Shown: piece by piece, positions 37,071-39,435 of the stretch
Position numbering within the stretch: position 1 is the stretch's first letter
Layout: each line of letters opens with the position of its first letter
Assembly: GCF_025698945.1 (NCBI RefSeq)
Contig: NZ_JAILWM010000003.1
Span: 62,001-126,000 of the forward strand
Source: Nitrosopumilus sp.
GTDB taxonomy: Archaea; Thermoproteota; Nitrososphaeria; Nitrososphaerales; Nitrosopumilaceae
Length of the DNA: 64,000 bases
Direction: 5' to 3'
Position numbers and translations under genes: made by a program
The notes under the pieces: generated by a model
The model's database searches: none
What the model saw: the letters and a program-made list of their open reading frames with translations, nothing else
What the model was told of the DNA's origin: nothing

Positions 37071-37757
37071 ATGTATGAAGAAAATTTAGAAATGTCCCAG
37101 TTCAATCACATCCCAATCCCATTTGAGCCAGCCCGACTAATCGAAAAAGAAGATGGACATTACTACCAGACACCAAAGGGAAACATCTACCCTTCAATTA
37201 CCACAATGCTTCACAAAACAATGCCGCTTGAAAAATTGCAAAGCCTTGAGAACTGGAAGATCCAAGAAGTAGCAGCTGATTACATTACCCAAGAATCAGC
37301 AACGATTGGAACTCAAACTCACGAGATGATTGAGAACTATCTTAATGGAGTTCCATTTACAGAGCAGTACCGATTACTATCAGTTGCACATTTTAACAAT
37401 CTCTTGCCCTTTATTCAGAAAATAAATGACATTCATGGGACTGAGCTTAGATTGTACAGTGATGCAATGAAGCTAGCTGGAACATCTGACTGTATTGCAA
37501 AATATGATGGAGAACTCTCAATTATCGACTACAAGACAAAGAGAAGCAATCAGCAAGAAGAATGGATGACTGATCACTTTATTCAAGGAACTGCATATGC
37601 CCAGATGTTCAAAGAGATTACTGGAATTGAGATTAAACAAGTTGTGATTTTAGTTAGCAGTGAGAAAAATACTAGAATGGAATTTGTCAAAAACACTGAT
37701 GATTACATTGATCCACTAGTTGAGCGATTAACAAAATTCTACGATACACTGCCGTAG
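37071..37757 (+). CDS. PD-(D/E)XK nuclease (RecB/Cas4-like fold)
   Basis: The 228-aa protein has an N-terminal SITTMLHKTMPLEKLQSLEN region and GTQTHEMIENYL, an early acidic/His site. The core motif is KLAGTSDCIAKYDGELSIID followed by YKTKR, the D...D-x-K nuclease centre, and then FIQGTAYAQMF with the QxxxY motif common in RecB-like nucleases. It resembles phage-type exonucleases and MGME1. ATGs at 37071 and 37092 are possible starts. It is the only plus-strand enzyme inside the microprotein island. Confidence 0.75.
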   Translation: MYEENLEMSQFNHIPIPFEPARLIEKEDGHYYQTPKGNIYPSITTMLHKTMPLEKLQSLENWKIQEVAADYITQESATIGTQTHEMIENYLNGVPFTEQYRLLSVAHFNNLLPFIQKINDIHGTELRLYSDAMKLAGTSDCIAKYDGELSIIDYKTKRSNQQEEWMTDHFIQGTAYAQMFKEITGIEIKQVVILVSSEKNTRMEFVKNTDDYIDPLVERLTKFYDTLP

Positions 37758-38613: not shown

Positions 38614-38667
38614 TTACCACTATTAGGAATTGAAGATCATTGTTAAATATCATTTTAACATAATAGA

Positions 38668-38771
38668 TATAACGAGAAAGCCGTTGTTTTGCGTAGTAAA
38701 ATGATGGTATGGAAAACACCTCATGTTAGAGAAAACGTCCTAGAGTCATGTTTTCCATGTGTCTCGTTATA
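38668..38771 (+). ncRNA. Structured RNA candidate A (twin of 39112-39238)
   Basis: Outer stem P1 pairs 38668-38677 with 38762-38771 (ATAACGAGA with TCTCGTTAT, 10 bp). P2 is a hairpin CCGTTGTTTT ... AAAATGATGG with G-U pairs (38681-38707). P3 pairs 38709-38718 with 38749-38758 (ATGGAAAACA/TGTTTTCCAT, 10 bp perfect), and a smaller inner CTC/GAG hairpin is possible. The GTTAAAT box at 38642-38648 fits a plus-strand start. It ends 36 nt before the DUF1059 ATG, so it could be an independent RNA or a leader element of that gene. No coding frame explains it. Confidence 0.6.
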
Positions 38772-38806
38772 AAAAAATAAAAATACTATTGTTACCAATC
38801 ATTATC

Positions 38807-38983
38807 ATGACTAAAAGTATCAGCTGTGCAGACGCAGGCAAGGATTGTGGTTGGTCTGCTACGGCAAATACGGAAGATGAATTACTTGCCAAAGTTACAG
38901 AGCATGTCAAGGCAGATCACAAAGAGATTGAACTAAATGATAAGAATATCTCAAACATCAAATCCCTGATAAAAGAAATTTAA
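38807..38983 (+). CDS. DUF1059 small protein
   Basis: From ATG 38807 this is 58 aa, matching DUF1059: KSISCADAGKDCGWSATANT and EDELLAKVTEHVKADHKEIE, with Cys-His residues that could bind zinc (C...C...H...H). The frame extends upstream to a GTG at 38759 inside the structured RNA, which I reject: a TTATAAAA box at 38768-38775 lies about 30 nt before the ATG. The family is widespread in bacteria and archaea and uncharacterised. Confidence 0.85.
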   Translation: MTKSISCADAGKDCGWSATANTEDELLAKVTEHVKADHKEIELNDKNISNIKSLIKEI

Positions 38984-39111
38984 TATCTTTTTTTATTGTA
39001 TATAAAATTAATTCATTTCATTTTACATTTGTCACATTAATAGAAATATTTTAAATGAATTTTTAGAATCTAATCATATCGACTTAAATTTCATTTTGCC
39101 ATATAATGTAT

Positions 39112-39238
39112 GACGAGGCGCTATCATACCAACTAAATCAAAGAATTGTTTTGAGGAAGTTGACAGATAGATAGGAAAACACGAAGAAAGATGGAAACAT
39201 CTAACGATTCGTTTCATAGTTTTCCACTATACCTCGTC
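39112..39238 (+). ncRNA. Structured RNA candidate B (twin of 38668-38771)
   Basis: P1 pairs 39112-39118 with 39232-39238 (GACGAGG/CCTCGTC). P2 is a long hairpin: CTATC/GATAG (39121-39125 with 39166-39170), CAACT/AGTTG (39130-39134 with 39158-39162), TCAAA/TTTGA (39138-39142 with 39150-39154). P3 pairs GGAAAAC (39174-39180) with GTTTTCC (39219-39225), continued by ACGAA/TTCGT (39181-39185 with 39208-39212) and a GATG-GAAA-CATC tetraloop hairpin (39190-39201). An ACTTAAATT box near 39082 fits a plus-strand start. The gap from 38984 to 39111 shows nothing else. Confidence 0.6.
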
Positions 39239-39249
39239 TCCTAATTCGT

Positions 39250-39435
39250 TTATACACCAAAGGATTGGGATTTTTTTTCACATTTAGGACATCTAAGACC
39301 TCGAGTCTCAGTACCACATCTTTTGCAAAACGAATCAATGCCTACAACCTCTCTAGAACCTGTTCTTTTTGCCTTTACAATAAGTATAGCAACAATTAGT
39401 ATTCCTACTGCTATTCCAATCCATAAAAGTACCAT
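39250..39435 (-). CDS. Membrane-anchored zinc-ribbon microprotein
   Basis: The 61-aa protein has an N-terminal helix (LLWIGIAVGILIVAILIVKA) and a zinc ribbon at the C-terminus (FCKRCGTETRGLRCPKCEKK). ATG 39435 with a CTATATACA box about 26 nt upstream. The zinc ribbon would face the cytoplasm or outside depending on topology. Function unknown. Confidence 0.65.
   Translation of the reverse strand: MVLLWIGIAVGILIVAILIVKAKRTGSREVVGIDSFCKRCGTETRGLRCPKCEKKSQSFGV

Follow-up and report, generated by a model that had tools for sequence, protein, structure and literature searches.

Two paralogous structured RNAs of a probable new class in the archaeal family Nitrosopumilaceae

Y RNAs and 6S-type small RNAs are bound by proteins and have their ends sealed in a helix. 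The two RNAs described here, A and B, resemble them in their helix-sealed ends and in the protein binding that we propose, with no match in sequence or to an Rfam family, as judged by an Rfam search only. The C/D and H/ACA sRNAs of archaea, too, come from small stand-alone genes of about this length; unlike these, the A/B class is without C, D and ACA boxes, and its complementarity to rRNA is not above that of shuffled sequences. Yfr103 of marine Synechococcus and Prochlorococcus is also lineage-restricted, with several paralogues per genome, a strongly conserved structure and an unknown function, but it is cyanobacterial, 290–328 nt long and of very high measured expression, whereas the A/B class is archaeal, with members of 96–139 nt (PMC5069720). 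Tan1 (Thalassoarchaea ncRNA 1), to which A and B are likened by description, is likewise a structured orphan ncRNA from a lineage of marine archaea, though it belongs to marine group II Euryarchaeota, is 229 nt long and has been shown to be expressed (PMC5069720). A literature search of incomplete coverage found no report of A or B.

Both RNAs lie in a 64,000-nt stretch of Nitrosopumilus DNA (the window), taken from a genome of 1.75 Mb (G000, contig C3). The original prediction had described them as twin structured elements that flank a DUF1059 gene and that, by inspection, could be assigned to no known RNA class. Our analysis suggests that A and B very probably represent an undescribed class of small structured RNAs in Nitrosopumilaceae, and the explanation that we favour, at a probability of roughly 0.55, is that they are paralogous stand-alone RNA genes whose products act in trans as protein-bound RNAs.

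Structure and covariation of RNAs A and B

Folded alone, RNA A reaches a minimum free energy of −37.0 kcal/mol and RNA B one of −38.2 kcal/mol, and 0/200 dinucleotide shuffles of either were as good; the minus strands of both, with z of about −4.2, also fold better than their shuffles. The outer stem, the 5' hairpin and the second hairpin of A and B were found by folding where they had been predicted (Table 1). A DNA search with a cut-off of E 0.01 or better detected A in 17 other genomes, one of them by a mere 20-nt match, and B in 14, some of the matches being short, and the aligned homologues of A and of B have three helices in common. Covariance models were built from the aligned homologues of A (R1) and from those of B without any A sequence (R2), and a third model (R3) was made from 32 diverse A-type sequences.

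Table 1. Features of RNAs A and B and of their promoters, in window coordinates
Feature	Position	Strand	Description and basis
Promoter of RNA A	38635–38650	+	GATCA (BRE-like), then TATA box TTAAATAT at 38643–38650
RNA A (A-type member)	38668–38771	+	about 104 nt; outer stem and two hairpins, three-way junction; fold z −6.65, homologues with compensatory pairs, R1 score 91 bits
RNA A outer stem, 5' arm	38668–38677	+	partner 38762–38771
RNA A hairpin 1	38680–38708	+	conserved tip UYUGCGUMGUARA
RNA A hairpin 2	38709–38758	+	GGAAAAC/GUUUUCC stem, conserved unpaired CAUGUUA
RNA A outer stem, 3' arm	38762–38771	+	fold
TATA box of RNA B	39084–39091	+	TTAAATTT
RNA B (B-type member)	39112–39238	+	about 127 nt; outer stem and two hairpins, three-way junction; fold z −5.30, covariation among 12 B-type sequences, R2 score 112.7 bits
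RNA B outer stem, 5' arm	39112–39118	+	partner 39232–39238; 100% paired in 12 sequences
RNA B hairpin 1	39121–39170	+	long form in Nitrosopumilus
RNA B hairpin 2	39174–39225	+	GGAAAAC/GUUUUCC, then CGAA/UUCG, then GAUG-GAAA-CAUC
RNA B outer stem, 3' arm	39232–39238	+	fold

Across 32 diverse A-type members, pairing of the outer helix is complete (100%). In the A-type alignment, hairpin 1 of A carries compensatory changes at six of nine counted pairs, while three tip pairs are invariant (32/32); the tip, UCUGCGUMGUAGA, shows almost no variation, paired positions included. The CAUGUUA of hairpin 2 stays unpaired and conserved in A-type members across several genera. Hairpin 1 of the B type is short (CUGUC/GACAG) in genus g34, putatively Nitrosarchaeum, and four of the five pairs in the apical stem of B hairpin 2 are changed on both sides across members.

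Covariation beyond the two copies of the window was strong in three alignments, evaluated against 500 shuffles and against slid structures, controls that do not remove the relatedness of the sequences. Twelve B-type sequences aligned by MAFFT independently of the structure (A7) pair in 97.5% of cells and have 11 double-changed pairs, compared to a shuffled mean of 5.1 (reached in 0/500 shuffles; slid structures 0–4). The 32 A-type sequences of A10 gave 10 double-changed pairs against a shuffled mean of 4.0 (0/500; slid 1–7), and the 57 sequences of A9, which is fitted to the R2 model structure, gave 30 against 13.8 (0/500; slid 9–15). Counts of further pair types were less decisive, with shuffles doing as well in 142/500 cases on A7 and 35/500 on A10. 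The predicted exchange of A-T for G-C beside the ACGAG/CTCGT core of the outer stem is indeed present and holds generally: of 57 aligned members, 36 have G-C and 18 have A-U as the inner closing pair. The core itself is compensated in one subgroup (ACAAG/CTTGT). Judged from these alignments, the fold of the class is under selection.

Promoters and coding potential

The TATA-like boxes reported upstream of both RNAs are kept in their relatives at a fixed spacing. Such a box stands 29–32 nt before the CGAG core in 60/61 A-type copies (30 nt in 50 of them) and 30–33 nt before the core in 39/39 B-type copies, compared to a chance expectation, at random upstream positions, of about two per set. The 61 A-type copies share the upstream consensus GATCAtt.TTAAATAT.ATTTTgacgTA. 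Given this fixed spacing, A and B appear to be stand-alone RNA genes. A similar promoter precedes apparently leaderless protein genes, in which some 24–27 nt separate the first base of the box from the start. Transcription would accordingly begin at the base of the outer stem, at about 38667–38670 for A and 39108–39111 for B, and the predicted RNAs would be about 105 and 130 nt long with a helix sealing both ends. A shared regulon defined by the promoter motif was considered and rejected, since the same motif stands before ordinary protein genes and therefore seems to be a strong promoter of general use.

None of the reading frames stays open across all members, as expected from the original reading of the two elements as non-coding. 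A small ORF starting from the conserved AUG in hairpin 2 of A was also read by eye and judged to be non-coding because indels in the loop shift its frame.

Paralogues, distribution and gene neighbourhood

A covariance-model search had been set beforehand as a test of the prediction, and it yielded further copies within a single archaeal family, spread over five genera. R1 matched 54/200 and R2 48/200 Nitrosopumilaceae genomes. R2 also matched RNA A of the window at E 3.9e-5, a score that owes part to 13 upstream bases built into the model, and several loci in other genera were matched by both R1 and R2, indicating that A and B belong as paralogues to a single class; R3, although made from A-type sequences only, recovered B-type loci at E about 1e-3. 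By these matches, A and B are part of a larger class of paralogues, so that the 'twin' elements are indeed related but do not stand as a pair of their own.

Across 300 genomes of the order, R3 matched 56, every one of them in Nitrosopumilaceae; outside the family no match was obtained with this A-type model under stricter filters, which distant or B-type relatives could escape. Sampling of the window's own genus (45 genomes) showed A in 34 and B in 23; the two occur together in 19, and seven lack both. This patchy distribution, with A or B in 38/45 genomes, suggests that the RNA is dispensable or has diverged beyond detection in places. Pattern searches of the window's own genome gave no third copy. 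A single match to the A-type pattern, at L220:4908-4934, lies on a contig whose label assigns it to an actinobacterial MAG and may reflect chance, contamination or transfer.

A non-autonomous mobile element (MITE), with the ACGAG/CTCGT arms as terminal inverted repeats, would account for several copies in different places, there being up to four A-type copies per genome (four in G204, three in G071), and for an A-type pair about 2 kb apart (L198:1890-4010), each copy of which has a full promoter. We consider this highly improbable, because the copies are mostly diverged in sequence instead of near-identical, several loci have neighbours common to different species, the conserved promoter lies outside the repeat at a fixed spacing, and the pairs are maintained through double changes. 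The viral, phage and plasmid collections searched, IMG/VR with two patterns and PLSDB and INPHARED by distant blastn, contained no match, and a viral, plasmid or phage origin was rejected on this ground. Insertion linked to tRNA genes was likewise dismissed, with tRNA genes near 3/98 loci.

A-type and B-type copies also occur 2–3 kb apart in divergent orientation on contig C79 of G015 (L044/L083) and contig C16 of G018 (L053/L084), so the linkage of A and B in the window is not unique. Three A-type loci (L106, L107 and L108) have the identical sequence aaaaaaattagagttttgaaatt directly after the RNA.

The gene between A and B does belong to DUF1059 (PF06348, E 3e-19), and the gene upstream, at 37071–37757 of the window, encodes a PD-(D/E)XK nuclease-family protein (PF12705). 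Genes flanking the RNAs vary among locus groups and are common to several species within one group. It was conceivable that the RNAs are cis-acting 5' UTR elements or riboswitches of the downstream gene (DUF1059 in the case of A), given that only about 36 nt separate the end of A from the probable start codon of DUF1059 (38807), which is on the same strand. Against this, the downstream genes differ among loci, many being on the opposite strand, and DUF1059 relatives stand near just two other loci of those examined. The variable neighbours do not suggest a cis element, and the cis-leader reading is largely refuted already and can be given only a very slight chance. The proposed coupling to DUF1059 was consequently not supported and was rejected, the adjacency being regarded as coincidental.

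Known RNA classes and possible modes of action

Rfam 15 holds no family that reaches its gathering score for the A/B region or for ten relative loci, consistent with the original failure to recognise a known class; the best sub-threshold hits were snoU85, with 20.2 of 41 bits (minus strand, 38730–38966), and RAGATH-33, with 13.9 of 120.4 bits. The similar size and two-hairpin layout, together with a CUGA/GAGGA internal loop in hairpin 1 of Nitrosopumilus B copies that is loosely kink-turn-like, could point to a guide RNA for rRNA modification of the C/D or H/ACA type. Such a role is very unlikely: box C/D motifs (the C box, RUGAUGA, towards the 5' terminus and the D box, CUGA, towards the 3' terminus) and an ACA directly following the basal stem, within the final 8 nt, were each absent from all aligned members (A5 0/17, A10 0/32 and A7 0/12 in both cases), and the kink-like loop is missing in short B-type members. 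Moreover, the longest runs of complementarity to a 6.5-kb rRNA operon region (the genome's own 16S gene and downstream sequence) were 13 for A and 14 for B, at the level of shuffles (12–15 and 11–17, respectively).

Alternatively, A and B may act in trans as antisense sRNAs, pairing with mRNAs through their conserved unpaired loops and thereby blocking translation. The antisense loop of A would be UCAUGUUA, whose complement UAACAUGA includes a start codon, and the unpaired conservation of CAUGUUA in several genera, the stand-alone promoters and the multiple paralogues with differing loops all agree with this proposal. However, the complement of the central 11-mer of the A tip was found at the RNA loci only (13 genomes), and CCTAACATGATG, a longer complement to the loop of A hairpin 2, gave no conserved target in 10 Nitrosopumilus genomes; its sole recurrent near-match reads antisense to what looks like a coding sequence. 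Antisense targets of the A tip and of the A hairpin-2 loop were both rejected on these results, which cover the 11-mer and the longer loop complement of the A type, and we regard antisense action overall as unlikely.

The invariance of the A tip where it is paired, combined with the confinement of its complement to the RNA loci, tilts the balance to a protein over base pairing. In the favoured explanation, A and B would therefore be trans-acting RNAs bound by a common protein, which would recognise the invariant paired CGAG/CUCG and GGAAAAC/GUUUUCC and, in A-type members, also the UCUGC/GUAGA tip. Paralogues with different loops could present different surfaces or compete for the common protein, in a mode that would resemble titrating or scaffolding sRNAs. 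Protein binding as the mechanism is a realistic though tentative proposal drawn from conservation patterns, and the gene neighbourhoods offer no conserved candidate for the partner. Possibly, this family-wide sRNA class with its shared recognition core and varied loops is the RNA part of an RNP regulator in ammonia-oxidising archaea, which count among the ocean's most abundant cells and in which RNA-based regulation is little known. The dozens of homologues, two subtypes, covariation and promoter provide a direct handle for transcriptome searches and for the use of the RNA as protein bait.

Within 39199–39255 of the window, ATTCGTTT occurs in hairpin 2 of RNA B and a second time directly past its outer stem. 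The UUUCGU of this 3' tail is kept by many Nitrosopumilus B copies, and it could be a competitor for the UUCG strand of hairpin 2.
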